Source of the DNA: Phycisphaerales bacterium
GTDB lineage: Bacteria; Planctomycetota; Phycisphaerae; Phycisphaerales; UBA5793
DNA length: 64,000 nucleotides
Reading direction: 5' to 3'
Assembly: GCA_020852515.1 (NCBI GenBank)
Contig: JADZAS010000015.1
Span: 310,001-374,000 of the forward strand
Part shown: positions 11,287 through 27,705 of the stretch, piece after piece
Layout of the letters: each line of letters opens with the position of its first letter
Numbering within the stretch: the stretch's first letter is position 1
Position numbers and translations under genes: made by a program
The notes under the pieces: model-generated
Seen by the model: the letters and a program-made list of their open reading frames with translations, nothing else
Databases searched by the model: none
What the model was told of the DNA's origin: nothing

Positions 11287-11946
11287 ATGCCGCCTCAGAA
11301 CCCTCCCAGCCCCACGATCCGGTCCTGCACCCTCGGGCCGTGGGAAACCAACTGCTACGTCGTCTCCACGCCCGGCAGCGACGAATGCTGGATTATCGAT
11401 GTGGGATTCGACCCTGAAGTCCTCATCCAACTCGTCCGCCGCGCCAATCTGCGCCCGGTGCGCATCGTCCTGACGCACGCGCATCTCGACCACATTGCCG
11501 GAGTCAGGCAGGTGCTTGACGCATTCGGCCCTGTTGTGCTGGCGATTCACGAGGCCGAGGCGGATTTCCTGCTCGACCCCAATCTCAACCTTTCTTCGTT
11601 CGTCGAGATGAACATCACCACGCCCCCCGCCGATGAACTGCTGCGCGACGGGCAGGTGCTGACGCTGGGCGATGCGCAGTGGAAGGTGCTGCACACGCCC
11701 GGCCACAGCCCCGGCGGCATCACGCTCTACCACGCGCCCTCGAACCAGGCGATCGTCGGCGACACGCTCTTTGCAGGCTCGGTCGGGCGATACGACTTCC
11801 CCACCAGCGACGGCGCGCTGCTGTTCCGGTCGATCCGCGAGAAGCTGCTCACGCTGCCTGACGAAACGCGCATCTATCCGGGACACGGGCCGGAGACGAC
11901 CATCGGCCGCGAGCGCCGCACCAACCCGTTCCTCGCCGACCAGTAG
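11287..11946 (+). CDS. Metallo-beta-lactamase-fold hydrolase (glyoxalase II-like)
   Basis: A 219-residue protein of the MBL fold. The metal-binding motif HAHLDH lies at about 60-65, with further ligands in GHSPGG (about 139-144), DTLFAGSVG (Asp at about 159) and PGHGPET (about 198-204). The overall layout is that of glyoxalase II/YcbL-type hydrolases, which usually cleave thioesters such as S-lactoylglutathione or similar substrates. ATG 11287 follows GGAG at nine bases. It is convergent with, and almost touches, the last gene of the secretion operon. Confidence 0.93.
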   Translation: MPPQNPPSPTIRSCTLGPWETNCYVVSTPGSDECWIIDVGFDPEVLIQLVRRANLRPVRIVLTHAHLDHIAGVRQVLDAFGPVVLAIHEAEADFLLDPNLNLSSFVEMNITTPPADELLRDGQVLTLGDAQWKVLHTPGHSPGGITLYHAPSNQAIVGDTLFAGSVGRYDFPTSDGALLFRSIREKLLTLPDETRIYPGHGPETTIGRERRTNPFLADQ

Positions 11947-11952
11947 CGGCGG

Positions 11953-13278
11953 CTAGCGCGGGCTGCGCTGCAGGTCGGCCTGGTTGAGTTGGGCCGCGGC
12001 GGCGCGGACGGCCTCTTCGCCCGCCAGGCCCATCGCCCAGAGGTTCAGCTGAAAGAGAACCTTGGTGTCCATGGCGATGAGCACGAACGGATGAGCCGGG
12101 TTGCTCGTGGCGCAGGGCACGCCTGAACCCTTGAAGAGTTCGACGGGCGCGCTGCGGTCGCGCAGGAACTGGTAGTAGACGCGGCTGAGGCTGCTGTAGA
12201 TGATGCCATCGCCCGTGTGCCAGGCGGCGGCGATGCTCGGAGAAGGCAGGCCGCGCACGCGCTGTCCCTCGGGCCAGCGGGCGTCGTATTCGAAGATGCG
12301 CTGCTGTCCGCTGTGGAAAAAGAGAATGCGCGGCGAGCCGTCGGGCGCCGCCGGCGACTGGATCCCCGCCAGCGCCTGGAACGCCATGAACACCGTGCCC
12401 GCATCCGTCAGCCGCTCGCGCTGCAGCGGCTGGCGCATGGCCTCGGCCGAGCGCGTGTCGAAGACGACCAGATCGAGCGCCTGGTCGGCCCCGAGGTGGA
12501 AGGCAAAGAGCACGTTCTCATTGCCGCACCAGATCGGGAACATGAGATCGCCGGTTCCGTCGCCGGCGCGGTAAACTTCGTTCTCTCCCTGCACGAACAA
12601 TTCGAAGTGCGATTCATTTCCCTCGCCCACGCGCTGGCACCACGCGAGGCGCCCGGAGGGCGAACGCGCGGCGAAGGCGTTGACGCCCGAGTTGAGTAGC
12701 CACGTCGTTTCGCCCGTCTCCCATTGCACAAAGCCGATGCGGCGCATGTCAGGCCCCATCGGAGACTCGATAAGAAATCCTGACTCATCGGCGCCGCGGC
12801 CGAGGACGCCGGCTCCCTTGAGCCGCTTGTATTCGACGAGCCGCTGGCCCGGCTTGTCACCCTGGGTGTGCTCGATGCGGTAAATGATGATGTCGAGTTT
12901 GGGCGCGGTGACGGTTGCGTCGGCGAGGATGCAGTCCCAGACCTCATCATCCGCCAGCGCCGGAACCGGCGCTTGTACCGCCATGTACTGCCCGCCCGGG
13001 CTCACGAGCGGCAGCAGGTGCCGGTCGTATTCGATCGTGCCCAGCGATGCGATCCAGGCGGTGACGGCGGAGTTACTCGTGCTCAGGCCGTTCGGGACGT
13101 AGGTGTCGAGCACGCTGGTGTCGCGCGGCGTGTCGGGGCGCACCACGTCGGAATAGGTCAGGCGGGGCTTGTTGGCCTTTTCAGTCACGCAGCCGGTCGC
13201 GCACAGCGATGCTGCCAGCAGCGTCAGGAAAGTGGTCCGGCTCCACCGGGGCGATCGAATTCGAGCGCAATTTATCAT
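11953..13278 (-). CDS. Lipoprotein of unknown function at the end of the secretion operon
   Basis: A 441-residue predicted lipoprotein with a basic N-terminus, a hydrophobic segment and a lipobox ending ATGC (lipidated Cys near residue 26). The rest is predicted to be beta-rich with repeated Trp and aromatic-containing strands (for example GFVQWETGETTW, FFHSGQQRIFEYDARW, DGIIYSS). This suggests a beta-propeller-like fold, but no named family is assigned. The ATG at 13278 starts seven bases after the gspD stop, so it is almost certainly co-transcribed with the type II secretion genes. A role as an outer-membrane accessory or pilotin-like factor is only an inference from position and lipidation. 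Confidence 0.8.
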   Translation of the reverse strand: MINCARIRSPRWSRTTFLTLLAASLCATGCVTEKANKPRLTYSDVVRPDTPRDTSVLDTYVPNGLSTSNSAVTAWIASLGTIEYDRHLLPLVSPGGQYMAVQAPVPALADDEVWDCILADATVTAPKLDIIIYRIEHTQGDKPGQRLVEYKRLKGAGVLGRGADESGFLIESPMGPDMRRIGFVQWETGETTWLLNSGVNAFAARSPSGRLAWCQRVGEGNESHFELFVQGENEVYRAGDGTGDLMFPIWCGNENVLFAFHLGADQALDLVVFDTRSAEAMRQPLQRERLTDAGTVFMAFQALAGIQSPAAPDGSPRILFFHSGQQRIFEYDARWPEGQRVRGLPSPSIAAAWHTGDGIIYSSLSRVYYQFLRDRSAPVELFKGSGVPCATSNPAHPFVLIAMDTKVLFQLNLWAMGLAGEEAVRAAAAQLNQADLQRSPR

Positions 13279-13285
13279 GAGCGAT

Positions 13286-16057
13286 TCAGTCCTTTGGCGG
13301 CTGCTCCCACGGCAGATCCGATTTCCGCTCGGCGAGGCTGAACTTCGCGCCGCTGCGCGGCTTGTCCTCGCGATCGGCGGCGCCCGACGGGGTCTGCATC
13401 CACGGCAGGCTGCCGCGGCCGTCATCGAGCGGATCGCCCTCCGGCTGCGGCTCGCGCTCGCGATAGTAAGGCTCGTTCCAGTGATCGAGACTCGCGGGAC
13501 TCTCTTCGACATCCGCGCCTTCGAGTTTGCGCCGGCTCTCGTTGAGCAGGCGATAGTCATCCTCGCCCAGTGAGCGAATCTTGTCATCCGAGTCGAGAAT
13601 GATTGGGCGGATGAACGCGACCAGTTCGGTGCGCGATTCGGACTTTTCGGTCGAGCGGAACAGGCCGCCGATGAGCGGAATGTCGCCCAGCAGCGGAACC
13701 TTGCGCACGATGTCATTGAGCACGGTGCGCCGGATGCCGCTGATCACCACCGTCTGCCCGTCGCGGATCGTCACCTTTGTCGTCGTCTCGCGCCGGTCGA
13801 GGATCGAGCCGCCAAAGAGCGTCTGGCCCGGCACCACGCTGGACAACTTCAGGTTCACGCGCAGATCGACGTTGCCTTCCACGGTGATGTGCGGCCGCAC
13901 GCTGAGTTGGATGCCCACGGCGAGGTACTCGAAGCTCTGCGTCACGCCGCCCACGTCCGTCGTGGTTGAATCGGTGATGAACGGAATGTCCTGGCCGTCA
14001 AAGAAGTTCGCTTCTTCGTTGTCGCTTGTAACGACCTTGGGCCGGAAAAGCACGTTGACATCCGTCACCTGCGAGAGCGCCTGCAGCGCGACGTTGAGAT
14101 CGACGTTGACGCCCAGAGTGGAGGTGTCAAACAAGGCGTTGATGAGTTCGTTTTTCTCGCCCTCGATGTTGCTGTTCACGACGATGCGGTTGTCTTCGTT
14201 GGGTCCGCTGGCGACGTTGCCGCTGCCCCAGCGAATGCCCAGCGAAGTGGCGTCATCGACGCTGACCTCCGCGACGATCGCCTGGATGAGCACCTGCCGG
14301 CCCGGCGCATCGAGCATCTCGATCAGCGTACCCATGGCCTCGCGCAGTTCCGGCGGCGCGATGACCATCAGGCCGTTCATGCGCGGATAGGGCATGACGC
14401 GCACCTGGCCGATGAGGTTCGAGATCTTGCGCGCATCGGGGTCGGGTGAGCCCGACTGCCACGGAAACGCCATCTCTTGGCCTTGTTCTGGTGTCTGCTG
14501 CTGCGTCTGCTGCTGCTGGTTGCCGATCTGCGAGACGTTGGATCGCTCCGTCAGTTCCTGGGTGGTCCGCTCCACCGCGGCCCCGCGGGCGCCTTCCTCG
14601 GCCAGCAGCGCGTTGATGCGGATGGCCAGGTCCTCGGCGTCGGCGTATTTCAGTTCATAAATCTGCGGCTTGTTCACGTCGCCGGGCACGTCGAGGCGGT
14701 GAATGAACTCCTCCACGAGCGGATACATCGTGGGAATCTGCGATGTAACGAAGAGCAGGTTCTTCGTGTTGTCCGCCTTGAACGACAACTGCCCCGCGAG
14801 CGCGGAGAGTTTCGGTCCTTCGCCTTCCTGGTTGCGCGAGGTGTTCTGCTGCTGCCGCGCCGCGTTGCCGTCGAAGAAGAAGCCGCTCTCAAATGTCTGA
14901 ACGTCCTCGCTCTCCTGCGCGAAGATTTCGTTGAGCATCTCGGCCATCTTCACCGCATCGCTGTTCTCCAGGCGGATGACGATCGGCAGCGGCTCGCCGT
15001 GCTTGATGTCCCACTGATCTTTGATCTGATTGCGCACCTGCTCGATGATGTCGCGCTCGGCCCGCACCGTAACTGAGTTGAGCGACTTGTCCGTCACCAC
15101 CGACAGCTGCGTCGAAGTGGTCAGCCCTTCGTCCTGGCCGGGACGGGGTCGATTCCCGCCAAAGATGTTCTGGTTTCGACCGCCCTGCTGCTGCTCTTCC
15201 TCCTGACCGAAGATGCCGACGATGAGCTTGGCCACGCGGTCGGCGCTGGCATACTTGAGATAAAACGTCTCGAGTTGCAGGTTGCTGCCGGCGATGTCGA
15301 GCTTGTCGATCTGCTCCTGCAGGCGCTGGAGCGTGCCGATGTTATAAAGCGCGATGATCCGGTTGGAGGTGTCATCGACTTCGATCTTCATGTTCGGCGG
15401 GCCCTGGGCCTGGATCTTGTCCTTGATCGTCGAGGCCTTGCCGTACTTGATCTCGAACACCTTCTCGATCACCATACCCGTGTCGTTGCGGCCGAGCACG
15501 GGCTTCTCGGGCCCCCACACGGGCACCATGCCCTCCTGAATGTTGGCGACGTTGAGCACGGCCAGATGCGTGCCGCGATCGATCACCGCGATGCGGCTGG
15601 CAAAGAGCGTGTCCACGAGCAGGTTGAGCGCCTGCTCTCGGGTGAGCGGCGTCGAGTTGATGATGGTGATCTTGCCCTGCTGGCTGAGCATGAGCGGATC
15701 GGGCTGCACCGGCCGGCCCGAGAGGCGCTGGAGCAGCAGCATGGCCTGGTCGATGGGCATGCCGTTGAGCGAGAGCAGTTCGGTATCGCCCTGAGGCTGG
15801 GCGCCTGCGGCTGCGCCGGGCTGCGCCTGGGGGTTGTCGAGCGGCTGAGGCTCGCCGAATTCAAGGCCGCCGTCGTCGCCGCCCTCGAGGCCGAAGTCGA
15901 AGATGGGCTGATCATCTTCATTGCCGGTCTGCGTCTGGTCCGGCGGGGCGCCGAAGTTCAGCGGTGAATCCGGGGCGTCCTGCGCTCCCGGCGCGCTGGC
16001 GGGCGCGACGAGTGCGGATGCAGCCAGGGCCAGGCACGTTCGGCGATAGTGTTTCAT
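13286..16057 (-). CDS. gspD: Type II secretion system secretin
   Basis: A 923-residue outer-membrane secretin. A signal peptide (cleavage near AQD, residue 25) is followed by an acidic, Gln/Asn-rich linker, N-terminal periplasmic domains (N0-like at about 90-170, repeated N1-N3-like modules at about 190-570) with two Gln-rich insertions, and the C-terminal secretin domain (about 600-830). The late signature VPLLGDIPLIGGLFRS near 790-805 is diagnostic of GspD/PilQ-family secretins. A Pro/Glu/Arg-rich tail of about 80 residues follows. ATG 16057 is preferred over an upstream in-frame ATG at 16090, because only the shorter form starts at the signal peptide. The length is greater than E. coli GspD (about 650 residues), owing to the N-terminal linker, Gln-rich insertions and tail. 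Confidence 0.93.
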   Translation of the reverse strand: MKHYRRTCLALAASALVAPASAPGAQDAPDSPLNFGAPPDQTQTGNEDDQPIFDFGLEGGDDGGLEFGEPQPLDNPQAQPGAAAGAQPQGDTELLSLNGMPIDQAMLLLQRLSGRPVQPDPLMLSQQGKITIINSTPLTREQALNLLVDTLFASRIAVIDRGTHLAVLNVANIQEGMVPVWGPEKPVLGRNDTGMVIEKVFEIKYGKASTIKDKIQAQGPPNMKIEVDDTSNRIIALYNIGTLQRLQEQIDKLDIAGSNLQLETFYLKYASADRVAKLIVGIFGQEEEQQQGGRNQNIFGGNRPRPGQDEGLTTSTQLSVVTDKSLNSVTVRAERDIIEQVRNQIKDQWDIKHGEPLPIVIRLENSDAVKMAEMLNEIFAQESEDVQTFESGFFFDGNAARQQQNTSRNQEGEGPKLSALAGQLSFKADNTKNLLFVTSQIPTMYPLVEEFIHRLDVPGDVNKPQIYELKYADAEDLAIRINALLAEEGARGAAVERTTQELTERSNVSQIGNQQQQTQQQTPEQGQEMAFPWQSGSPDPDARKISNLIGQVRVMPYPRMNGLMVIAPPELREAMGTLIEMLDAPGRQVLIQAIVAEVSVDDATSLGIRWGSGNVASGPNEDNRIVVNSNIEGEKNELINALFDTSTLGVNVDLNVALQALSQVTDVNVLFRPKVVTSDNEEANFFDGQDIPFITDSTTTDVGGVTQSFEYLAVGIQLSVRPHITVEGNVDLRVNLKLSSVVPGQTLFGGSILDRRETTTKVTIRDGQTVVISGIRRTVLNDIVRKVPLLGDIPLIGGLFRSTEKSESRTELVAFIRPIILDSDDKIRSLGEDDYRLLNESRRKLEGADVEESPASLDHWNEPYYREREPQPEGDPLDDGRGSLPWMQTPSGAADREDKPRSGAKFSLAERKSDLPWEQPPKD

Positions 16058-16178
16058 GTATCTCGCGTTCCTGTTGGGCCGCACTCTCACGCGGCCGCGT
16101 TTGTCTCTCTGCTCGTGAGGTGACGATCCCTCAAGCGGCGCTCCGGTCCACCACGACCGGCCGCCGACACTTCATGGT

Positions 16179-16865
16179 TCAGTTGTTGTCGCCAGTGGCA
16201 GCTTCCTCTGAAGCGACGTCGTCGCCGAAGTCCAGCCCGGCGCCGCCCGCCGCGGTCGAAGCCGGGTTGCCGAAAAGGCTCGCCGCGGGCGCGGCGCCGC
16301 CCGGCCCGCCGCCGAAGTTGACCACGGGCAGCGCCTCGAGCCGGTCGAACAGGTTCAGTTCAAACTCCGCGCCCGACCAGCGCACCTTCGCCTTCCACGG
16401 CTTTTCGATCCCCAGCAGTTCGAGGCTGCCGCCCTTGTCGCCCACGCGAAGAAATGGGCTGCTGTTGAAAACATTGGAATCGAAGACGGCGCCTTCGCTG
16501 CCGGCAAAGCCAATGAGTTTCGGCCCGCCGTAGGTGCGCGGCGGCGTGGCCGGCCTCGGCTGAGTGTCCACGATCACCGGCTCCCGCTCCACGCGCGGCC
16601 GGGCCGGCGTGAAGAACGGCGAGCGCTTGCTGATGAAATCCACATCCGACTTGACGGCTTCGTTGTACGCAAGCGCCGCGGCATCACCCGAATCGACCCC
16701 TTGCGTCACTTGGTACAGCGAGCCGGCAAACAGAGCCGAAAGCACCTTGGGCGACACCCAGAGCAGCACCACCGCCGCCGCCGCGAGAAGGCCGATGGCC
16801 GCGCGGGAAATCCCCGGCAGGCCGCGCCACGTGCTGTAAAGTGCATTGGCGTTCATGACGTTCAT
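16179..16865 (-). CDS. Inner-membrane protein in the GspC/PilP position
   Basis: A 228-residue bitopic protein. It has a short cytoplasmic N-terminus, one transmembrane helix (about 20-40), and a periplasmic part with a Pro/Arg linker followed by a small beta-rich domain (about 110-185) and a Gly/Ala-rich tail. The layout and gene order just before gspD match GspC or PilP, which link the inner-membrane platform to the secretin through a homology-region domain. Similarity is by architecture rather than clear motifs. The ATG at 16865 overlaps the upstream stop as ATGA. A second ATG at 16856 is better spaced from AAGGA and may be the true start. Confidence 0.7.
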   Translation of the reverse strand: MNVMNANALYSTWRGLPGISRAAIGLLAAAAVVLLWVSPKVLSALFAGSLYQVTQGVDSGDAAALAYNEAVKSDVDFISKRSPFFTPARPRVEREPVIVDTQPRPATPPRTYGGPKLIGFAGSEGAVFDSNVFNSSPFLRVGDKGGSLELLGIEKPWKAKVRWSGAEFELNLFDRLEALPVVNFGGGPGGAAPAASLFGNPASTAAGGAGLDFGDDVASEEAATGDNN

Positions 16866-17455
16866 TCCTTACTGAGGTACCACGCGTCGGCGACGAGCGT
16901 GACCTCGACTTCGGCCCGATCGGTGAGCCGCCGCACTCGCACGGAAGCAATCTCCGCGATGGACGGCACCATTTCCAGATCGCCGATCACCGCCATGGCA
17001 ATATGAGGCTTGGCGGTGAATTTCACTTCGATCGGACCTCTTACATATTCGACGCCCGACTTGGCCGCGTCCGTCTTAAGTTTAGTTGAAGACCGCTCGG
17101 TCATCGACGCGCGGTCTTTTGTGAGGTCATACTTCGACAGCACTTCGCTGATAGCCACTTTCGCCTCGAGCACGCGCGACTGGTCAGCGCCCGGCGGCAG
17201 GACGTTGCCCCACTTTTTGTGCCCGTCGGCGATGATGTCGCGGTTCGCTTCATCCGGCTCGCTGTACCTGGCGATGTTCATCACCGCCTGGTCGGCGCGG
17301 GCTCGCTGCTGCGCCATGAGCACGAGCAGCGGCTCGATCAGAATAAAGTACAGCGCCAGCGCGATGACGAGCCAGACGAGCCACTTCATGGCGCGCGGCA
17401 ACTGGCGGTACGTCGCGCTCAAGCCGCCCCGGGTTGTGGTTCCAGTGCTGTTCAC
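16862..17455 (-). CDS. PilO/GspM-like inner-membrane protein
   Basis: A 197-residue protein with a basic N-terminus, one transmembrane helix (about 22-43), a coiled-coil segment (about 45-105) and a ferredoxin-like periplasmic C-terminal domain (about 115-195) with alternating strands. This is the architecture of PilO/GspM assembly-platform proteins, and the gene order (after a GspL/PilMN-like gene, before a GspC-position gene) agrees. GspM pairs with GspL in the inner-membrane platform. The four-base overlap with each neighbour indicates translational coupling. Sequence identity to named GspM is too low to be certain from inspection. Confidence 0.75.
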   Translation of the reverse strand: MNSTGTTTRGGLSATYRQLPRAMKWLVWLVIALALYFILIEPLLVLMAQQRARADQAVMNIARYSEPDEANRDIIADGHKKWGNVLPPGADQSRVLEAKVAISEVLSKYDLTKDRASMTERSSTKLKTDAAKSGVEYVRGPIEVKFTAKPHIAMAVIGDLEMVPSIAEIASVRVRRLTDRAEVEVTLVADAWYLSKE

Positions 17456-19326
17456 GGTTCGAAATCATCTCCATCGGGCGAGGGCTGGCTGCTCAACTGC
17501 CGCTTGCGCTCGAGCAGTTTGTTCCATTCTTCCTGCAGGCGCGGATCGGAATACTTGATGGCCGCGCGGGCGAGCAGCGCCTTCTGCACTTCGTCTTCGT
17601 TCATCGCGCCGATCTGCTCATCCGTCAGTGGAGGCGGCGGCCCCTTGGGCGGACTGCTCGAGCCGCTGCCGCCGGCGGTACCGCTGCCGGTCGTGCTGCT
17701 GGCGCCTGTGCTGCTGCGCGCAGCGCCGGGCGAGGCGCCGCTGGAGTTTCCCACGGGCGGGAAAACGAAACCACTGCCGTCCGAACCGCCGCTGTCCTGT
17801 GGCGAGCGATTCCGCGGGGAGCGCGACGGCGGACTGAAGCCTCCGAGGCTGAAACTGCTAAAGTTATATTCGCCCGGGACGACTTCCTCGGGCGGCTGGT
17901 CGTAGAGCACCGTCGCGAGCGGCTCATCGCTGGGTCGCTTGACCTTCGCCGTCGCGTTAGCCACGACGGCCTGCAGTTCGAATTCGATCTTGTTCTCGCC
18001 CCAGGTGAAGTTCGGCGCCTTCACCTCGGCAAAGAGGCTCGACTCGTTGAGCCGGCTGTGAAACTCCAGCACCTGGCTCTGCTCGGTCAGGGGCGCCGAG
18101 CCGCTGACCGTCACCATCGACGAACTGTCGATGTTAATAGAATCGAAGGCGATGTCATACGGCGCCATGCCCGCGATGTCGGCAAGGATCTTGGTCATCG
18201 GCCAGCGATGGCTGCGCAGGGTGCGGAAGAAGTCCGCTTCCGCCTGGCGATCCTTGAACACCTTCTCGACTTCCTGAAGACCGCGCGTTTTGTATTCGAG
18301 GATGGCCAGGCGCGTCCACCCGCCGAGGATCGGCGCCGCCAGGATAACCAGCAGCGCCACAATCGCCACGCGCCTGGCGCGGGCGGGGTCGCTGAGCCAG
18401 TTGAGCGCCGAAACGAGCGGCCCGCGCACCACCTCGGGCGCCTCGGGCAGCAGTTCCGCCATACCGCGCCGCGGCCCCATCGCGGCCAGCGCCGCACCCG
18501 CGCACAGGCCGAATCGATTCCACCACGCGCCGTCGGCGCCGGCGCCCGAGACGGACTTGCCCAGGCGCTGCAGGACCTCGGCTTCGACGACGAGAACCTG
18601 CCGCTGCGCGCGGGCGGCGTTGCTCACGCGCAATTCGAGATCGGCCAGCGCCTCATCCGAAGCGCCGGCGCTCATGGCTGTTTCGACGGCGATGCGGGCC
18701 GCGTCGGTGGACCACTGCGCTTCGCTGAGGCGCGCCGTGCGAACCGCCGTCACCCCCTCCAGGTGCGCCGCGAGTTCCATCGACCGCTGATCGCGATCAA
18801 GCGAGGCAATCGTGCCCTGGTTGATGCCGCTGTGCACGAGCAGTTCCAGCAGGGCCGCCGCCTCGGCGCAGCACGTCACGTTCTCGATGCTCGAGGGCCA
18901 GTCGGCGGCCTGCTCGCCCGGCCAGCCGAACGCGATCGCGATGCGGTTGTCCACCGGCGTGCGCCAGGGCATGAGCGCCACGGCGCGGCGGTGGCCGGGC
19001 AGCATGGCGGGCAACTCGGCCTCAGCCTGCAACTGGGCCGCCTCCGCGGCCGCGGCGTCGTCAAGCGGCGGAATCTCCAGCACCCGGCAAACCACCGAAC
19101 CGCCGGGCAGCACGCGCACGACGCGCTCGGCCGCCCACCGGGTCAGCAGGGCCGCGAGGCGGTCGGCGTCGCGGGCCGGCAGCGTCTGGTGTTCGACGAC
19201 ATGAATGCGCCCGCTGCGCACTTCGGCGAGCAGCGCGCTGATCTGATCGCCCTGGCGGTGCACCGCGGCGACGCGGCGTGGCGCGTCATGGTCGTTGAGT
19301 CGGGTTGAAGTGTTGAGTCTCGTCAT
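17452..19326 (-). CDS. GspL/PilM-PilN-like assembly platform protein
   Basis: A 624-residue protein. The N-terminal half (about 1-300) looks like a degenerate actin-fold PilM/GspL cytoplasmic domain. A transmembrane helix at about 320-340 is followed by a coiled coil and a PilN-like ferredoxin-fold periplasmic region (about 345-460). The C-terminal 160 residues are low complexity (Ser/Gly/Pro-rich linker) and then a short helical segment rich in charged residues. In type II secretion, GspL connects the GspE ATPase to the platform. A fused PilM-PilN arrangement is equivalent. Both ends overlap neighbouring genes by four bases. The low-complexity tail is unusual for GspL. Confidence 0.75.
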   Translation of the reverse strand: MTRLNTSTRLNDHDAPRRVAAVHRQGDQISALLAEVRSGRIHVVEHQTLPARDADRLAALLTRWAAERVVRVLPGGSVVCRVLEIPPLDDAAAAEAAQLQAEAELPAMLPGHRRAVALMPWRTPVDNRIAIAFGWPGEQAADWPSSIENVTCCAEAAALLELLVHSGINQGTIASLDRDQRSMELAAHLEGVTAVRTARLSEAQWSTDAARIAVETAMSAGASDEALADLELRVSNAARAQRQVLVVEAEVLQRLGKSVSGAGADGAWWNRFGLCAGAALAAMGPRRGMAELLPEAPEVVRGPLVSALNWLSDPARARRVAIVALLVILAAPILGGWTRLAILEYKTRGLQEVEKVFKDRQAEADFFRTLRSHRWPMTKILADIAGMAPYDIAFDSINIDSSSMVTVSGSAPLTEQSQVLEFHSRLNESSLFAEVKAPNFTWGENKIEFELQAVVANATAKVKRPSDEPLATVLYDQPPEEVVPGEYNFSSFSLGGFSPPSRSPRNRSPQDSGGSDGSGFVFPPVGNSSGASPGAARSSTGASSTTGSGTAGGSGSSSPPKGPPPPLTDEQIGAMNEDEVQKALLARAAIKYSDPRLQEEWNKLLERKRQLSSQPSPDGDDFEP

Positions 19327-20774
19327 CGTTCGAGGTAATCGATTATCTGAATGGGAAGCGAAGAACGGTCGATCGTAACCACCAGTTCAACCTCAGTCCT
19401 GCCGGGCAGTCCCACGCCCAGGCTCGTGATCGTGTACACGTTGCTCTTCACGTCAATGAGCGGCGCCATCGCCGCGAGCATCTCCCGGCTGATCGTCGGA
19501 AGCTCGAGCAACTCGATAATGTTCGTGATGCCGTCTGACTTGCTGTTGCGCAGCAGATCGATCTGGTCCGCCAGCGCCTCATCGACCTCGGGAAGCAATT
19601 CAAGCACCTCGACGGGTGCTTTGTTGATGTTGATGCGCCCGGGCACAGAGGCGTACGTCGTGCCGATCGTGCTCTGGGCGAGCACGCGGCCGATCTGCTC
19701 GTCGGTCAGATCGCGCGCGCCGAGCGTCTGCTGTTGCTGCTGCTGCTGGTTGCGTTGATTGCGCCGGCCTTGCGTTCCTCCGGTGGTGGCGCCGCCGGTT
19801 TCGCCGTCCCCACTCGCGCCCGCCGGCTGGCCCGAGCGCGTGATGGTGCTCAGGGGCGTGGTGATCAGGCCCGCCAGCGTGTTGCCTTCGGCGCGGGAAT
19901 ACTGGAACAGCGCGTTGGCCTGGGCGATATCCACACCGAGCGCGCGACTGATCTCCGAAACGGCGGAGGTGCTCAGCGAAATCTTGCCCGCCTGCGGCGC
20001 CAGCGGGCCCGGCTCGCGCGAGGCCGCGGTGAGCAGCGCCGACCAGCCCGCATCGAGCCGGCCGTCGCCGTTGTCATCGGGCAGCGAGGCGTCGCCGTCG
20101 TCTTCATTGGGATCAAGCAGGCCGTTGAAGTTCCAGTCTTCTTCGCGAAGCAGCTCAGGCGTCACGCCGTAGACGAGTTCGAGTTCCTGGATCGACTTGA
20201 ACGGCGCGTTGCGCGGGCTGTAGGGCTTGAGGTCGTTGTTGTAATACCCGGCCTCGGCGCCGCCTTCGCGCACGTCGCCATCCGGATCGACCCAGTCGAG
20301 GATCGACGCGACGATCTCGGGTGTGATGTCTTCGAGTTTGTTGAGCGCATCCTCGTCGAGCGTGTTGATGTTCGCCCTGGCGTGGGCGTCGGCCGGGCCG
20401 TCAACGACTCGATCGTCGTACCAGTGCTGAATGTGGTACTCCGCCACGAGCAGTCCGTTGGAGTCGGTGATCTCGCCGTGCGCGAGTTGCTCCATGTCCG
20501 CTTCGAAGTTTGGCAGGTCGATTTCCTGCTCGGTGTCGATGAGCCACTCGAGGTAGGCCATGTACGACTCAACGCCGGCGCGGGCGGCCCACTTGGCGCG
20601 CACGCGGCCGAGCGCTTCGCGGCCGGACATCGCCTGGCGCTGGGCGGAGAGTTGCAGGGGGATGACGATGAGCGAGGCGATGGTGACGACCCACAGCACG
20701 AGCATGAGCGTCGAGCCGCGCCGTCTGCCGCGCATCGCGCGCGCCGCCGGGATGTTGTGGCGCGCTGGGATCAT
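19323..20774 (-). CDS. gspK: Type II secretion minor pseudopilin GspK
   Basis: A 483-residue protein with a class III-type prepilin leader RRRG followed by STLMLVLWVVTIASLIV. As is typical of GspK, the residue at +5 is not Glu. The large globular region contains a helix-hairpin-helix-like T2SSK segment (PGRININKAPVEVLELLP at about 383-400), which is the family hallmark. A Gln-rich insertion lies at about 325-350. GspK caps the pseudopilus tip together with GspI and GspJ. It overlaps gspJ upstream and the gspL-like gene downstream by four bases each. Confidence 0.92.
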   Translation of the reverse strand: MIPARHNIPAARAMRGRRRGSTLMLVLWVVTIASLIVIPLQLSAQRQAMSGREALGRVRAKWAARAGVESYMAYLEWLIDTEQEIDLPNFEADMEQLAHGEITDSNGLLVAEYHIQHWYDDRVVDGPADAHARANINTLDEDALNKLEDITPEIVASILDWVDPDGDVREGGAEAGYYNNDLKPYSPRNAPFKSIQELELVYGVTPELLREEDWNFNGLLDPNEDDGDASLPDDNGDGRLDAGWSALLTAASREPGPLAPQAGKISLSTSAVSEISRALGVDIAQANALFQYSRAEGNTLAGLITTPLSTITRSGQPAGASGDGETGGATTGGTQGRRNQRNQQQQQQQTLGARDLTDEQIGRVLAQSTIGTTYASVPGRININKAPVEVLELLPEVDEALADQIDLLRNSKSDGITNIIELLELPTISREMLAAMAPLIDVKSNVYTITSLGVGLPGRTEVELVVTIDRSSLPIQIIDYLER

Positions 20775-21718
20775 CCGTCTCCTCTCGGCCGGCCGCCGCC
20801 GCTGCGTCCGCCACCGTCGCCGCCGCGCGTGCCGCCGCCCTCTCCTCCGCGATCTCCGCCGCGGTCGCGCGGCCGGCGCCGAGGCCCGCTTCCACCGCCG
20901 CCGAAGTCGCCTCCACCACCGCCGCCTCCGCCAAAGTCGATCGTCGGCGCTCCCGAGCCGTTCTCCGAATCGAAGAACTCGAGATTCTCGATGTCACTCG
21001 ACGGGTCATAGGTCTCATCCACCGCGGGGTCGAAGGGCAGGGGTATCCGGTCGATGGCGACGGTCAGGCGCGACGCGACTTCTGCGCCGGTTGATGGAAT
21101 GACGCCGCGACACGTGACGCGCAGCGCGTGCGGCAGGCCGTCGGTGTCGCTGTCCCACGTGCTCAGCCAGGTCGTGCCGTCGAACGCTTCGAAATCGAGC
21201 GAGCGGATGTTGATACCCATCGGCACCGCGACTCCACCGCCTTCGTAGTTCTCATCGACGATGGGATCGGCGCGGCGCCAGACCACGCCCGTGACGACCG
21301 GGTCAGTCTTGAGACGGTAACTCACTTCGTGAATCGTCGACTCGCGGTAGGTCGGGTCATCATCGTTCGCGGGGCGCACCGGCCGCATCGAGCGGCAGAA
21401 GAGCAGGATCTCATCGTGCTGATCGGCGCCCGAACTGGTCGTGTCTTCGATGCGCACGATCGTGTCGAGCAGCCGGGTGTCGCGGACGATGTTTGCCATG
21501 TCGCGCGCGATCGAGCGCGTGATCGAATTGACCGACTCGACGGCCGCCTGCCTCTGGGAGGATCGGTCGCGCCCGTCGGCCAGGCGGCGGATGGAGATCG
21601 TCGCCGCGCCCGCGAGGATGGAGGCGATCACGCTGGCGACGACAAGTTCGATGAGCGTGAAGCCGCGCCGCGCGGCCGCGCGCCGTGGCGCCCGTGATGT
21701 GCGGTTGATCTGCCTCAT
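20771..21718 (-). CDS. gspJ: Type II secretion minor pseudopilin GspJ
   Basis: A 315-residue pseudopilin with leader ARRG and methylation segment FTLIELVVASVIAS, including Glu at +5. The globular domain (about 60-240) fits GspJ. The C-terminal 75 residues are extremely Gly/Arg/Asp-rich (GGGGGGGGDFGGGG, RRRPRDRGGDRGG) and probably disordered, an extension not found in the E. coli protein. It overlaps gspI and gspK by four bases each. GspJ forms part of the tip complex that starts pseudopilus growth. Confidence 0.88.
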   Translation of the reverse strand: MRQINRTSRAPRRAAARRGFTLIELVVASVIASILAGAATISIRRLADGRDRSSQRQAAVESVNSITRSIARDMANIVRDTRLLDTIVRIEDTTSSGADQHDEILLFCRSMRPVRPANDDDPTYRESTIHEVSYRLKTDPVVTGVVWRRADPIVDENYEGGGVAVPMGINIRSLDFEAFDGTTWLSTWDSDTDGLPHALRVTCRGVIPSTGAEVASRLTVAIDRIPLPFDPAVDETYDPSSDIENLEFFDSENGSGAPTIDFGGGGGGGGDFGGGGSGPRRRPRDRGGDRGGEGGGTRGGDGGGRSGGGRPRGDG

Positions 21719-22158
21719 GGCCGCTCCACGGGCTGAGTGGGTTCGCGTTCGGGATCGGGTTCTTCGCCCAGCCGGCGGGCCATGAGCGTCTGCACTTCAG
21801 CCGTCTGCTCGCCCGCGCCCGTCTGCCACCACACGCGCGCGGTCACGCGAAACGGCTCGTTGGGCGCCGTGTCGTCGATGCTGATGCGGAAGGTGAAGCG
21901 GTCAAGCGGCGGCTCGACCGTCCCGCTCATCTCGCCGGCCTTGAGGTATTCGGCCGGTCCCAGCGCCAGCACGTCGTTGAGCAGTGAATCGAGCACCATC
22001 GCGGCTTCCTCGATCTGCTGCCCGCGCGCCTGCGCATTGAGCGACCGGCTGGCGATGCCCAGCACGGCGACCAGGGCGCCCGAGAGCACCATGCCCGCCA
22101 CGAGCACGTCCATCAGCGCCAGGCCGCGGCGGATCGGATTGGCTTGGCGCCTCACCAT
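21715..22158 (-). CDS. gspI: Type II secretion minor pseudopilin GspI-like protein
   Basis: A 147-residue protein with a short prepilin leader ending in IRRG, followed by LALMDVLVAGMVLSG. The residue at +5 is Asp instead of the nearly invariant Glu, a conservative change that could affect assembly. The globular part fits a small minor pseudopilin, and its place between gspH and gspJ fits GspI. It overlaps gspJ by four bases and gspH by seven. The assignment rests on leader, length and gene order. Confidence 0.8.
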   Translation of the reverse strand: MVRRQANPIRRGLALMDVLVAGMVLSGALVAVLGIASRSLNAQARGQQIEEAAMVLDSLLNDVLALGPAEYLKAGEMSGTVEPPLDRFTFRISIDDTAPNEPFRVTARVWWQTGAGEQTAEVQTLMARRLGEEPDPEREPTQPVERP

Positions 22159-22790
22159 CGCTCGTCTCCGGCGCCTTGCGCGTTGAGGTCTTCGGGCGTG
22201 AGGCGCAGCCGCGTCGCTTCCTCGCTCAGCGTCATCGAGCGCATCTCGCTGGGCAGCAGCGTGACGGTTTCGACCGTGTCGCCGAAGGCGATGTCGAGTT
22301 CTATGTTCGGCCGCATGCGGTTGGGCGCGACTTCGACGCGGAACGAGCCGCGCTCAAGTTGCCCGTCAAACAGCGCCGCTTCAAGGGTGATGTCGCGCTC
22401 GAAGGTGACCGGCGGCGTGAGGTTGTCGCGCTTCCACTGGCCTTCGGCCGGCCGCGTATCAGGGGTCAGTCCCATCGCAATCGTCGACTCGAGGCGCTCG
22501 ACCCACAGCTGGTTGAGACCCGAGTCGTACACGAGCGCCACGGGCGCCTGGCTGGCCACCTGCCGGTGCGCGAGCGTGTCGAGCACGTTCTGCACGCGCT
22601 GCACCATCACCCGGCCGCGGCGCGGCAGTGTGTTGGTCATGCGCACCGTCGTCACACCCGCGAGGACCGAGAGGATCACGATCACGACGATCATCTCGAC
22701 GAGCGTAAAGCCGCCGCGACGCTGCGCGGATGGCTGGTTCGAGATGGTGGCGGTGCGGTTCATGATGCGATCCGTGCGGGTTGAGACCAT
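22152..22790 (-). CDS. gspH: Type II secretion minor pseudopilin GspH
   Basis: A 212-residue pseudopilin with leader RRGG and processed N-terminus FTLVEMIVVIVILSVLA, with Glu at +5. The globular domain follows. The start at 22790 overlaps the gspG stop as TGATG, so re-initiation is likely. A second in-frame ATG at 22763 would shorten the leader. GspH is a minor pseudopilin of the pseudopilus tip region. Confidence 0.87.
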   Translation of the reverse strand: MVSTRTDRIMNRTATISNQPSAQRRGGFTLVEMIVVIVILSVLAGVTTVRMTNTLPRRGRVMVQRVQNVLDTLAHRQVASQAPVALVYDSGLNQLWVERLESTIAMGLTPDTRPAEGQWKRDNLTPPVTFERDITLEAALFDGQLERGSFRVEVAPNRMRPNIELDIAFGDTVETVTLLPSEMRSMTLSEEATRLRLTPEDLNAQGAGDERW

Positions 22791-23227
22791 CAGCCGATGA
22801 TGTCGGCGTTGTCGCCTTCGCCGCCCTCGCGGCCATCGGCGCCGTAACTGACGATGTCGTAATCGACGTGGACGGTTGGAGGAATGACCAGGGCGTAGTC
22901 ATTGCCCCAGGGGTCCTTCAGATCGGCTTCCTTGTTGATGCCCTTCTGCCATGTGTCCGGCGCATCCTTGGGTTTGTCCCACAGCATGGCGCGCAGCGTG
23001 TCGCCGCTGTCGGGTTCGCGCCCGAGGTCGGTATAGACCAGATCGAGCGACGTGCGCAGGCTCGCCATCGACGCCTTGGCCGCGGCGACCTTGGACTGGC
23101 CGATGCGGCCCATCAGGCGCGGCGCGACCACGGCGGCGAGCACGCCGATGATGATGACCACGACGATGGCTTCGATGAGCGTAAAGCCGCGCCGCGGGCG
23201 ACGTTGAGAACGGTTTCTGGTTGGCAT
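22790..23227 (-). CDS. gspG: Type II secretion major pseudopilin
   Basis: A 145-residue major pseudopilin. The leader ends RPRRG and the mature protein begins FTLIEAIVVVIIIGVLAAVVAPRLMG, the classic type IV pilin helix with Glu at +5. The C-terminal region contains DPWGNDYALV and a GADGREGGEGDNADIIG segment that matches the calcium-binding loop of GspG. It forms the pseudopilus that pushes substrates through the secretin. ATG 23227 is chosen because GGAG lies nine bases upstream; a TTG at 23242 is less likely. No prepilin peptidase gene is seen in the window. Confidence 0.96.
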   Translation of the reverse strand: MPTRNRSQRRPRRGFTLIEAIVVVIIIGVLAAVVAPRLMGRIGQSKVAAAKASMASLRTSLDLVYTDLGREPDSGDTLRAMLWDKPKDAPDTWQKGINKEADLKDPWGNDYALVIPPTVHVDYDIVSYGADGREGGEGDNADIIG

Positions 23228-23255
23228 GGTTCGAATCTCCAAATGGGCGGCCGGT

Positions 23256-24524
23256 TCAGCCGATCGCAGCCTGAAGCGAGAGCATGGGAAGAATGACGGA
23301 CAGAATGACGAAGCCGATGATGATCGCCATGAACACGACGATGACCGGCGGCAGCGCCGAGGTGAACATTTTGAGAGAAGCGGTCGTGCGCCGGTCGAAC
23401 GAGTGCGCCGCCTGCGTGAGCATGGTGTCGAGCCGGCCGCTGCGCTCGCCGAGGTCGATGATCTGAATGAGGATCGGCGGGAAGTAGCCGCTCTTTTCCA
23501 TGGGTTCGGCGATCGACTTGCCCGAGCGAATTTTGTCGGCCACTTCGTCGATGACCTGCTCCATCGCCTTGTTGCCCAGCGTGTCGCGCGTGATGACGAT
23601 CGCGTCGATGATCGGAATGCCCGAAGCCATCAGCGTGCCCAGCGTTCGCGTGAAGCGGCCGACCGCCACATCGCGCGTCAGTGCGCCGACGATGGGAATG
23701 CCCAGCAGCATGCGGTCGCGCTCGTAGCGGATGTGCGGCTGGGCCATGGCGGACCTGTACGCCGCGAACGCCAGGCCGATGCCCGCGAGCACGAGCCACC
23801 AGTAGGCGCCCATGAAATCGGCAAAGCCCTTGACGATCACCGTCGGCAGCGGCAGCGTGATGTTCTGCCCTTCGAGGCTCGAAAGCACGCGCGGAATGAT
23901 GAACGTCACGATCACGGCGATGCCCACGGCCAGCACGCAGATGAGAATCGCCGGGTACATCAGCGCCGCCGCGACGGAGCGCTTCGTCTCGAGTTCACGA
24001 TCGAGCAGGTCGGCCAGTTGCATCATGACGACTTCGAGCCGGCCCGACGCTTCGCCGGCGCGGAGCATGCCCACGATCATGTCATCAAAAGGCTTGCCCC
24101 ATTCGAGCGCGGCCTGCGCGAGGCTGCGGCCGGCTTCGATGCGGCTCATGAGGTGTTCGATAACCGCCCTCTGCCGCTCGCTGGACGCCTGCTTTTCCAC
24201 GGCGCGCAGCGCGCTCATGAGCGGCAGGCCCGCTTCCAGGGCCGTGGCAATCTCGCGGATGAAACCCGCCAGTTCGCTGCGGCGCATCGTGCCCTTGACG
24301 CCGCTGGTCGCTCGGCCGATGTCGGCGCTCGCCGCGCCGGGCGCCGAGCGGAACGACGGAGCCGAGCGGCCGGCGGCAATGTGCCCGTTGAGCGGCGCCA
24401 GTTGCGTGGCCGTCTCGCCGCGCTGCCGCAGCGCGCGGATCGCTTCAGCGCGATCGTTCGCGTCGATCGTGCCAGCCATCGACTGGCCAGCGCGGGTCAC
24501 GGATTGGTATTGAAAAGTCGGCAT
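23256..24524 (-). CDS. gspF: Type II secretion inner-membrane platform protein
   Basis: A 422-residue GspF/PilC-family protein. The N-terminal FQYQSVTRAGQ segment is followed by a cytoplasmic helical domain, a membrane helix near 175-195 and a repeat of the domain, with helices near 230 and 390-415. The first domain signature LPLMSALRAVE (about 125-135) matches the T2SSF family. GspF anchors the pseudopilus and interacts with the GspE ATPase. It lies 17 bases after gspE and 28 bases before gspG. Confidence 0.95.
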   Translation of the reverse strand: MPTFQYQSVTRAGQSMAGTIDANDRAEAIRALRQRGETATQLAPLNGHIAAGRSAPSFRSAPGAASADIGRATSGVKGTMRRSELAGFIREIATALEAGLPLMSALRAVEKQASSERQRAVIEHLMSRIEAGRSLAQAALEWGKPFDDMIVGMLRAGEASGRLEVVMMQLADLLDRELETKRSVAAALMYPAILICVLAVGIAVIVTFIIPRVLSSLEGQNITLPLPTVIVKGFADFMGAYWWLVLAGIGLAFAAYRSAMAQPHIRYERDRMLLGIPIVGALTRDVAVGRFTRTLGTLMASGIPIIDAIVITRDTLGNKAMEQVIDEVADKIRSGKSIAEPMEKSGYFPPILIQIIDLGERSGRLDTMLTQAAHSFDRRTTASLKMFTSALPPVIVVFMAIIIGFVILSVILPMLSLQAAIG

Positions 24525-24541
24525 GCGTCAGGTTCCGACGG

Positions 24542-26152
24542 TCAGGACGCCTTCGTCCCACCGGTCATCTGCAGTTCTTCCTCGGCGTCCTGCGTGGCGC
24601 GCAGCACTTCGTCAATCGTGGTTCGACCGGCGGCGGCCTTGATGAGCCCGTCCGTTCTCATGCGCAGGTGCGTATCGTGCGCTTCCTTGAGGATGTCCAG
24701 CGCGCCCAGGCGCTGGCTGATGGCGCGGCGCATCGAACCGTTGATCTCGAGCACCTCGAAGAAACCGATGCGCCCGCGATAGCCCGAACCGTTGCACTTC
24801 TCGCAGCCGGCGCCTTCGTAGCACTTGCCCTCGAACATCGCCATCTCGGCCTGCGACAGGCGGTGGCTGACCGCTTCGGGGATCGGCACGTGCCGCCGGC
24901 AGTGCGGACAGATGCGCCGCCCGAGACGCTGGGCGATCACCCCCTCAAGCACCGACGACACCAGGAACGGCTCCACGCCCATGTCGATCAGGCGCGTCAC
25001 CGCCGACACCGCGTCGTTCGTGTGGATCGTTGAAAACACAAGGTGGCCCGTGAGCGCCGAGCGCACGGCGATCTCCGCCGTCTCGCCGTCGCGGATTTCG
25101 CCGACCATGATGATGTCCGGGTCCTGACGCAGGATGCTGCGCAGCCCGCTGGCGAAGGTCAGCCCGCGCTTGGGATTCACCGGAATCTGGTTCACGCCGT
25201 GCAGTTCGTATTCGACGGGGTCCTCGATCGTGATGATCTTGAGTTCAGGCGAGTAGATCTTCTGCAGTCCGGCGTAGAGCGTCGTCGTCTTGCCGCTGCC
25301 CGTCGGTCCGCTCACCAGCAGCATGCCGTGCGGCACATCCAGCAGGCGGTCCATGACCTTGACGTCCTTCTCGCTCATTCCCAATTCGGTCAGATCGAGC
25401 GGCAGCGTGCCCTTGTCGAGGATGCGCAGCACGACCGACTCACCGTAGAGCGTCGGAACGGTGCTCACGCGCAAGTCAACCTTGCGGCCTTCGAAGCGCA
25501 GCGTGATGTGGCCGTCCTGGGGCACGAATCGCTCGGCGATGTTCATGCCCGCCATGATCTTGATGCGCGAGATGATCGCCGGTTGGAGATGGCGCGGCGG
25601 AGGGGTCTGCTCATTAAGCACGCCGTCGATGCGATACTTGATCTTGAGTTCGGTTTCGAAGGGCTCGATGTGCACGTCCGAAGCGCGGCCCTTGATCGCC
25701 TCGAGGATGATGAGGTTGACCAGGTTGATCAGCGTGGGCTGCTCGGCCATGCGGTGGAGGTCATCCGCCTCGATGGCTTCGATGTTGCGATCGAGGATGT
25801 CCTCGCCGCCGCCGTCGCCGCGCAGGCTCTCGGCCATGCGCGCCGCCGTCGTGCCGTATTGCGCTTCGAACAGCTTCTTAAATGGCGCGGCGCTCATGCC
25901 GCAGCGCACGACCGGCCGCTGGGCGAGCACCGCCACCTCGTCGGCCGCGGCCAGATCGAGCGGATCGAGCATCACCACGACCACCGCGTCACCTTCGAAG
26001 CGCACCGGCACGAGACGATGGTCGATGGCTTGCTCGGCGGGAATGACCGACGCGACGGCCGGATCGACCTGCTCAAGCGGTTCGTCGTACCACTCGATGC
26101 CCAGCCGCGTGCAGCGCTGACGCACTTGGTTTTCGACGGTGGTTTCACTCAT
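24542..26152 (-). CDS. gspE: Type II secretion hexameric ATPase
   Basis: A 536-residue traffic ATPase. The N-terminal T2SSE_N domain (about 1-130) docks on GspL. The catalytic core has Walker A GPTGSGKT (282-289), an Asp box, Walker B-like DIIMVGEIRD (about 346-355) and a His box. A four-Cys zinc motif of the GspE type (CPHC and CEKC) lies near 417-460. It powers pseudopilus extension. The ATG overlaps the stop of the upstream exported protein as ATGA. Cyclic di-GMP-binding MshEN motifs are not evident in this copy, in contrast to the orphan protein at 30225-30698. Confidence 0.97.
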   Translation of the reverse strand: MSETTVENQVRQRCTRLGIEWYDEPLEQVDPAVASVIPAEQAIDHRLVPVRFEGDAVVVVMLDPLDLAAADEVAVLAQRPVVRCGMSAAPFKKLFEAQYGTTAARMAESLRGDGGGEDILDRNIEAIEADDLHRMAEQPTLINLVNLIILEAIKGRASDVHIEPFETELKIKYRIDGVLNEQTPPPRHLQPAIISRIKIMAGMNIAERFVPQDGHITLRFEGRKVDLRVSTVPTLYGESVVLRILDKGTLPLDLTELGMSEKDVKVMDRLLDVPHGMLLVSGPTGSGKTTTLYAGLQKIYSPELKIITIEDPVEYELHGVNQIPVNPKRGLTFASGLRSILRQDPDIIMVGEIRDGETAEIAVRSALTGHLVFSTIHTNDAVSAVTRLIDMGVEPFLVSSVLEGVIAQRLGRRICPHCRRHVPIPEAVSHRLSQAEMAMFEGKCYEGAGCEKCNGSGYRGRIGFFEVLEINGSMRRAISQRLGALDILKEAHDTHLRMRTDGLIKAAAGRTTIDEVLRATQDAEEELQMTGGTKAS

Positions 26153-27393
26153 TGGCGGCGGTCACCTTCATTTTCAAAACTCACCCCTCGCGTCAGTGCC
26201 TGCAACTGGTCGGGCCTGAGCACCGTGCGGATGCTTGCGAGCGTGGACTGAACGAGCGACTGGCGCGAACTCAGCAGCGACTGCGCCCGCGCTTCGAGAG
26301 CCCCCGGATCGCCCGCCCCACCCTGCTCCACCCGGCCGTCGCCCTGCTGCGTCGGCGGGTTGAGGCGCTGCATTTCCCTCGTCAACTCGACTTCAACCAG
26401 TTCGCGGTTAATAGGTTCCAGACGGGCGTGGTAGTCGCCCACCATCCCGCTCAGGGCGCTGTCCTGCTCGGGCGTCAAAGCGGCCAGCTGGCGCACCCGC
26501 GCCACGTCCGCCGCCACCGGGTCCGAGCCGAACACGCGCGGCCAGACCCTCTTTTGAAACGATTCGCGGAAGCGCCGGCCCTCTTCGGGCGGCAGCTGCT
26601 CGGCAATCCGGTCAAGGTACTGCAGGTTCAGATCCCGCAGTTGAATGTGCAGACGAATGAGCCGCTGCTGGAGCGAATCCATCCGGCTCGGGTTGTCCTT
26701 GGCATCCGCCTGATAGGAGAGCGCATCGAGCTGGTCCGCCACGCGGAGGCGTTCGGCCAGCGGCGTATCAAAGTCGATCGCGTACTGGTCCACCACGCCC
26801 TGGCAGTGCTGCCGCACTTCATCAGGCAGATCGAGGTCGTCGAGCAGGGCCACGAGATCGACGCGCTCGGGCATGAGACGCGCCCCCAGCAGCACCCCGA
26901 CGCGCCGCAGCCGGTCGCGCTCGAAGCGCGGCCAGCGGGCCGCCTGATCTTCGGTCACCAGATCTTTCACGTCGGCGAAGAAGCTGGTTTCGTAGGCGCT
27001 GGACTGGCGGCCCCATTCGGCCCGCTTGCGCTCGTAGTCGCCGATCAACTGGTTCAGCGTGCCGATGTCCTCGCCCTTCTGCACCGACGCCTCGCGGAGG
27101 CGAGCCAGTTCGGCGTGGGCTTCATCGGCCGAGGCGTTGAACGCGCTGCGGTAACCCTGGTACATGGCGCGCACGAGGTCTTCCTGGCTTTCGTCGAGGT
27201 CGAGCGTCTCGACGAGCGCTTCGACATCCTCGCCGGTGACGGTGGGGATGCGTCCCTGGTAGAAGGTGCGCATGGCGATCTGCGCCGCGGCGCTGCGACC
27301 CAGCCCGAGAACCGCGGCCGCGCCGAGCACCAGCAGCGCGCACCGCAGCACGATGGACGGGCGGGTGATCAGACTGGCGCGCGATCGTGGCAT
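26149..27393 (-). CDS. Exported helical protein, first gene of the secretion operon
   Basis: A 414-residue protein with a signal peptide or N-terminal anchor (hydrophobic stretch at about 15-35, ending SAAAQ). The remaining sequence is almost entirely alpha-helical and charged. It contains repeated L-T/D-x-x-Q style helices (DLDESQEDLVRAMYQGY, ALTPEQDSALSGMV, VLRPDQLQALTRGV) reminiscent of the LTXXQ motif of periplasmic Spy/CpxP chaperones, but larger. No known Gsp subunit matches. ATG 27393 is chosen because the signal peptide begins there. Its stop overlaps the gspE start as ATGA, so it belongs to the operon. It may be a periplasmic accessory factor; this is inference. Confidence 0.75.
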   Translation of the reverse strand: MPRSRASLITRPSIVLRCALLVLGAAAVLGLGRSAAAQIAMRTFYQGRIPTVTGEDVEALVETLDLDESQEDLVRAMYQGYRSAFNASADEAHAELARLREASVQKGEDIGTLNQLIGDYERKRAEWGRQSSAYETSFFADVKDLVTEDQAARWPRFERDRLRRVGVLLGARLMPERVDLVALLDDLDLPDEVRQHCQGVVDQYAIDFDTPLAERLRVADQLDALSYQADAKDNPSRMDSLQQRLIRLHIQLRDLNLQYLDRIAEQLPPEEGRRFRESFQKRVWPRVFGSDPVAADVARVRQLAALTPEQDSALSGMVGDYHARLEPINRELVEVELTREMQRLNPPTQQGDGRVEQGGAGDPGALEARAQSLLSSRQSLVQSTLASIRTVLRPDQLQALTRGVSFENEGDRRQ

Positions 27394-27705
27394 GGCGCTG
27401 CGTTTCCTGCTCTCAGAACGCGGGTTTTTGCCTTCCAGACCCGCGGGACCATAGGATGATCGTAGACGAGACAGCGGACGACGCTGCCCGCGCCACGGCC
27501 AAATTGCCCAGGTCGGACTTGTACTCTGGAATCGGGTGGCTTCCTCGGCCCCACCTCGGATCACCCTACCGCTCCGGACATCCATCAAGACGTACCAACG
27601 TCGGCGATCCGGCCCCGATTGCAGTGCAATTGGCGCGCTCCGGGTTATCGCTCCGCCCCCCCGCTCATCCGCCGCTCACACCCGCCACGCTACCATCTCT
27701 CGACC
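27394..27705. other. Divergent intergenic region between the secretion operon and pgsA
   Basis: This 312-base region must hold promoters for both the long minus-strand secretion operon and the plus-strand pgsA-pgpA pair. A short hairpin can be drawn at about 27419-27445 (CGCGGGT pairing with ACCCGCG). No strong -35/-10 pair and no coding region stand out. Confidence 0.5.

Follow-up and report, generated by a model that had tools for sequence, protein, structure and literature searches.

A conserved type II secretion operon of Phycisphaerales with an exported Spy-like protein and a predicted propeller lipoprotein as candidate components

A cluster of 13 genes from a Phycisphaerales bacterium is a type II secretion (T2SS) operon conserved in that order. 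Its first and last genes encode an exported helical protein (S) and a lipoprotein (P), and each is a good candidate for a part or helper of the secretion machine that has so far gone unrecognised. The cluster lies in a 64-kb window (G000:C15:310001-374000), the whole stretch of DNA that was analysed, from a genome of 4.7 Mb in 39 contigs. All 13 genes are on the minus strand, running from position 27393 to 11953 of the window in the order S-E-F-G-H-I-J-K-L-M-C-D-P, where letters other than S and P are those of the gsp genes (Table 1). The operon had been recognised and correctly placed in a first-pass annotation of the window, and the gene order given there is also that of relatives. The arrangement is not due to chance, because the 13-gene order recurs in at least four families of Phycisphaerales.

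Eight of the 12 junctions in the operon are overlaps. Six of these are of 4 bases (S/E, I/J, J/K, K/L, L/M and M/C), with a 7-base overlap at H/I and a single-base overlap at G/H; short gaps separate E from F (17 nt), F from G (28 nt) and D from P (7 nt). The first-pass statement that almost every junction is a few-base overlap thus comes down to eight of 12. At C/D the gap is 88–121 nt, depending on whether GspD starts at ATG 16057 or GTG 16090. This interval (16058-16178, minus strand) is the sole sizeable gap of the operon, and a second promoter is possible there. In a crude scan, none of the gene boundaries of the operon showed a minus-strand terminator. About 2.8 kb upstream, on the same strand, a gene at 30225-30698 encodes a stand-alone 157-aa MshEN (GspE N-terminal) domain protein, a possible c-di-GMP-type regulator. 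Another minus-strand gene (28931-29860) encodes an FGE-sulfatase/SUMF1-like protein whose C-terminal tail, a hydrophobic stretch followed by RKRR, resembles a sorting signal.

Table 1. Genes of the operon and the two genes that bound it (window coordinates)
Feature	Position	Strand	Assignment and supporting matches
CDP-alcohol phosphatidyltransferase gene	27619-28341	+	Divergent; bounds the cluster at the S side
S, exported helical protein, 414 aa	26149-27393 (ATG at 27393)	-	Three predicted CnrX/Spy-like (Metal_resist/LTXXQ) modules
gspE, ATPase with MshEN N-domain	24542-26152	-	T2SSE 452 bits, MshEN 42 bits
gspF, platform protein	23256-24524	-	T2SSF 1.1e-56
gspG, major pseudopilin	22790-23227	-	TIGR01710 109 bits, exceeding the cut-off of 88.85; T2SSG match
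gspH-position minor pseudopilin	22152-22790	-	N_methyl above cut-off; gspH profile 27 bits
gspI-position minor pseudopilin	21715-22158	-	Assigned by position only
gspJ, minor pseudopilin	20771-21718	-	T2SSJ 7.4e-6 and gspJ 1.2e-8, both under cut-off
gspK, minor pseudopilin	19323-20774	-	T2SSK_1st 53 bits, above cut-off; NF037980 70 bits, below cut-off
gspL-type protein	17452-19326	-	GspL/PilM-like cytoplasmic part and PilN-like part
gspM	16862-17455	-	T2SSM in 6/23 and T2SSM_b in 5/23 homologues; best 9e-7 (weak scores)
GspC-position protein	16179-16865	-	N-terminal membrane helix, Pro-rich linker and small conserved domain (YGGP...VFF...VGE...W), from homologue alignment
gspD, secretin	13286-16057 (ATG) or 13286-16090 (alternative GTG)	-	Secretin 4.5e-44, Secretin_N x3
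P, lipoprotein, 441 aa	11953-13278	-	Predicted seven-bladed beta-propeller; lipobox Cys30
Metallo-beta-lactamase-fold gene	11287-11946	+	Convergent; bounds the cluster at the P side

Order-wide linkage shows that S and P belong to the operon. In a set of 61 relatives, gspD orthologues (E below 1e-90) were present in 32 genomes, and their loci were retrieved. The complete gene order is kept in families f1, f3 and f4 and in part of f2, with S directly upstream of E in every f1–f4 locus long enough to judge. The divergent systems of families f5 and f6 keep the core genes, and P is present in four of five genomes; S was not found in these operons. At four such loci (L072, L073, L074 and L076) P is the next gene after gspD. 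By hand count P follows gspD in 29 of the 32 genomes, the exceptions being G036, G054 and G035. A second set of 80 named contigs, drawn with a GspK alignment and overlapping partly with the first, gave a similar picture: S is directly 5' of gspE in all 50 testable named loci, and P is directly 3' of gspD in 40 of 43 (37 by automatic count; L098, L105 and L173 were added by hand, as their mechanically called P frame starts too far upstream). On these counts the flanking genes do not sit in unrelated contexts in most relatives, which the first-pass annotation had named as an outcome that would speak against its proposal.

The spacing of the two genes from their neighbours differs. The gspD–P junction is a 4-nt overlap in 22 of 71 loci, and P starts within 20 nt of the gspD stop in 36 more (about eight of the 71 loci are counted twice). 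S and E are more loosely spaced, with a 4-nt overlap in 10 of 75 loci, at most 20 nt in a further 28 and at most 150 nt in 31.

P occurs once per genome in the 61-relative search, and its full-length form was found there only in genomes with this gspD type. When 392 genomes of the phylum were surveyed, P and S at full length proved practically limited to Phycisphaerales; elsewhere the matches are to generic propeller repeats and to parts of S, including single-module LTXXQ-type proteins of about 175 aa. The lone full-length P outside the order is in G096, on a 3060-base contig (G096:C232, L192:997-3059, minus strand) that carries P and the end of gspD, overlapping by 4 bases; transfer or a binning error could account for it. 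P is not strictly required, because it is absent beside gspD in G036, G054, L119 and L140 and is unlinked in G035. In the latter genome (L093:1577-3028, minus strand; L054:1501-2940, plus strand) another lipoprotein-like ORF follows gspD, and P is on a different contig beside an integral-membrane gene. In G054 a small 165-aa lipoprotein, possibly a replacement, is encoded after gspD (L075:15742-16239, plus strand). Comparison by eye of gspD C-terminal tails from genomes with and without P revealed no motif that tracks P.

Purifying selection acts on both S and P, at a strength close to that on the C and L genes (dN/dS versus G004: S 0.19, P 0.15, C 0.13, L 0.13 and E 0.04). Together with the order-wide linkage and the start–stop coupling of D and P, this supports the first-pass proposal that the two are candidate components. 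It is somewhat unlikely that P, S or both are instead co-transcribed T2SS cargo, with P a lipoprotein delivered to the surface and S a helical protein that is exported. T2SSs elsewhere do export lipoproteins encoded beside the system, such as pullulanase, and the cargo reading would fit both the tandem duplication of S in f2 and f3 and the evolution of S and P at rates above those of E, F and D. Those rates are, however, about the same as for the GspC- and GspL-position proteins, and a single P per genome, in a fixed place after the secretin gene and with 4-nt overlaps, is more typical of a stoichiometric partner.

S is predicted to be composed of three consecutive CnrX/Spy-fold modules, at about residues 50–165, 174–286 and 298–408. 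The AlphaFold model, based on 27 homologues, is all-helical (pLDDT 84). Structure comparison with VIA-align matched CnrX to residues 174–286 (Z 11.6, rmsd 2.4, 109 aligned), NccX to residues 38–164 (Z 9.9, rmsd 3.4, 123 aligned) and Spy to residues 59–165 and 298–408 (Z 8.0 and 7.8); values under about 13 are modest for helical proteins, yet the top nine matches for S all belong to one family. The best structural neighbours of residues ~38–165 are NccX, STV and Spy. Foldseek gave no significant E-value for S. The Pfam Metal_resist and LTXXQ scores (19.3 and 16.3 bits) are under the gathering scores of 29.2 and 24.3, and homologues reach 7e-7. The model, the structure comparison and these homologue matches agree with the earlier description of the first gene product as Spy/CpxP-like. 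S shares the exported helical hairpin fold and LTxxQ-like motifs of Spy/CpxP/ZraP and CnrX/NccX (the LTXXQ and Metal_resist families), but it packs three modules into 414 aa and heads a T2SS operon, whereas the relatives matched outside the order have a single module.

Copies of S vary in number and place. Two or three tandem copies precede gspE at L082, L085, L087, L089 and L092, and several genomes of f2 and f3 carry S duplicated in tandem. In G005 the gene is split across two frames (L081:1887-3198, plus strand), through either a sequencing error or a recent break. The source genome has four stand-alone paralogues, two of them in tandem (L208:7159-10385, plus strand; L209:7672-9147, minus strand; L210:7700-9124, plus strand), with no operon core genes among their neighbours. 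The stand-alone f1 paralogues fall inside the f1 part of the S tree, in which paralogues of other families are hardly sampled; this position is consistent with their being copies that left the operon. On the basis of this nesting we rejected the view that S, being found elsewhere, is unrelated to the operon.

S may nevertheless be an accessory protein, because it has stand-alone paralogues, is absent from f5 and f6 and often lies 30–150 nt from gspE outside the genus; it may also be a regulator. A specific form of the latter, in which S is a CnrX- or CpxP-like sensor or regulator that tunes the operon to periplasmic or metal stress and is not a chaperone, is distinctly unlikely. S heads the operon, and its nearest folds are the metal sensors CnrX and NccX. 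The partner of CnrX, however, is a membrane anti-sigma factor and that of CpxP a sensor kinase, and no partner of either kind is coupled in the operon; moreover, three tandem modules suggest a binding surface.

P is a predicted lipoprotein whose model folds as a beta-propeller of seven blades. Of 28 homologues, 27 retain the lipobox cysteine, and in none does Asp come directly after it; this bears out the earlier designation of the last gene product as an uncharacterised lipoprotein. The AlphaFold model (28 homologues, pLDDT 84) has seven blades by strand count, and its nearest solved folds are seven-bladed WD40-type propellers (Z about 20, rmsd about 4, 280 aligned). The PD40 family of Pfam is matched by six of the 28 homologues, and a profile match to TolB (1.8e-5) covers the propeller repeats only; both matches appear to reflect the repeats, not orthology. 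The motif LLGRxADxxGFLVESPRPDGxRWIG, strongly conserved in f1–f4 and missing in f5/f6, may be the place to seek a candidate binding face.

P resembles BamB and TolB in being a predicted envelope beta-propeller. BamB, moreover, is a lipoprotein of the outer membrane that partners a complex for membrane-protein assembly. The TolB match and the survival of P on another contig in G035 would suit a general envelope lipoprotein of this kind, present in the operon by history and serving another process. That origin is very unlikely, given that, among the 61 relatives, full-length P was found only where this gspD type is present and that none of the 28 members has a Pfam match to the PQQ repeats of BamB.

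Our preferred reading, which we hold tentatively, is that, within a conserved Phycisphaerales T2SS operon, P and GspD work together at the outer membrane and S serves as a periplasmic helper. It is drawn from the place, fold and sorting signal of the two proteins. As a candidate machine part P is the stronger of the two, because paralogues of S stand alone and two families have P but no S. The lack of Asp after the lipobox cysteine suggests that P would be anchored in the outer membrane, by a lipoprotein sorting rule that comes from E. coli. There its propeller might serve to hold the ring of GspD secretin or to assemble it, or to dock substrates at the ring, and P would fill the place taken elsewhere by pilotins or collar proteins. 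Like the secretin pilotins (GspS/AspS, PulS, PilW and TadD), P is encoded next to the secretin gene and has a lipobox, and on these grounds it is a candidate for a pilotin role; known pilotins, however, are small or TPR-type helical proteins, in contrast to the predicted 441-aa beta-propeller. S would be a soluble helper with three Spy modules, located in the periplasm and keeping secretion substrates, or secretin subunits, there ahead of export. For Spy itself, protection of outer membrane proteins through complex formation has been reported (PMC8546600). Against this reading, propellers and Spy folds serve many jobs. A stronger version, which we consider rather doubtful, would make P the first member of a new class of outer-membrane lipoproteins that associate with the secretin, with a beta-propeller replacing the pilotin or collar in Phycisphaerales T2SSs, and S a T2SS-dedicated periplasmic chaperone of three Spy modules.

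The T2SS identity given in the first-pass annotation is confirmed by the profile matches of E, F, G, K and D. Of the features of a T2SS, the following are present: GspE and GspF, GspG, a GspD-type secretin, GspL and GspM (with weak scores), and a prepilin peptidase in the genome. The best PDB profile matches of gspD are GspD structures (5.8e-43), and its score against TIGR02517 is 328 bits, somewhat under the cut-off of 351. The gspL product, described at first as PilM/PilN-like, is a single protein of GspL/PilM–PilN type, with weak scores against the PDB profiles of PilN (6e-5) and GspL (8e-4) and a PilN match in 11 of 22 homologues. The gspM product, first called PilO-like, matched T2SSM rather than PilO; hhalign gave no match to E. 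coli K-12 GspM. No pseudopilin profile matched the gspI-position protein in the Pfam search.

The call of GspC for the gene between M and D is made from position and shape only: its place and topology fit, but all sequence tests failed, with no GspC or PilP match in Pfam, in the PDB profile search or in hhalign against E. coli K-12 GspC. As had been noted, the operon contains no gspO; the single recognisable prepilin peptidase of the genome is on another contig (G000:C21:42352; A24_N_bact 1e-33 and Peptidase_A24). GspN, GspS, GspA and GspB were not seen in the analysis; for this reason, and because of the GspC call, the first description of the system as 'complete' is overstated. T2SSE ATPases sharing one 493-aa open frame occur on three contigs (G000:C37:93349, C39:20003 and C29:20886), as repeated systems or mobile copies. 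A type IV pilus is an extremely improbable alternative: the PilN-like and PilM-like parts of gspL and the GspC call without sequence support would fit one, but GspG is above its equivalog cut-off, GspK, GspJ and T2SSM are matched and the secretin is nearest to GspD.

The operon shares with proteobacterial T2SSs (Gsp/Xcp/Eps) the E-F-G-H-I-J-K-L-M order, the major and putative minor pseudopilins and a GspD-type secretin. It differs in having C and D at the 3' end, where proteobacterial operons have them at the 5' end, and in a GspC-position protein without detectable homology, a gspL with a PilN-like part, a prepilin peptidase on another contig and the additional S and P. It is therefore a known machine with new lineage-specific attachments and not a new kind of system.

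To our knowledge, T2SS components are known almost entirely from proteobacteria, and a search of the open-access literature found no paper on planctomycete T2SS accessory proteins. That two envelope proteins stay with the T2SS across a planctomycete order points to parts or helpers missing from proteobacterial models. Two questions arise: by what means the secretin assembles when its gene has no known pilotin gene next to it, and whether the periplasm contains chaperones dedicated to secretion substrates. Each is now tied to named genes and hence is testable.
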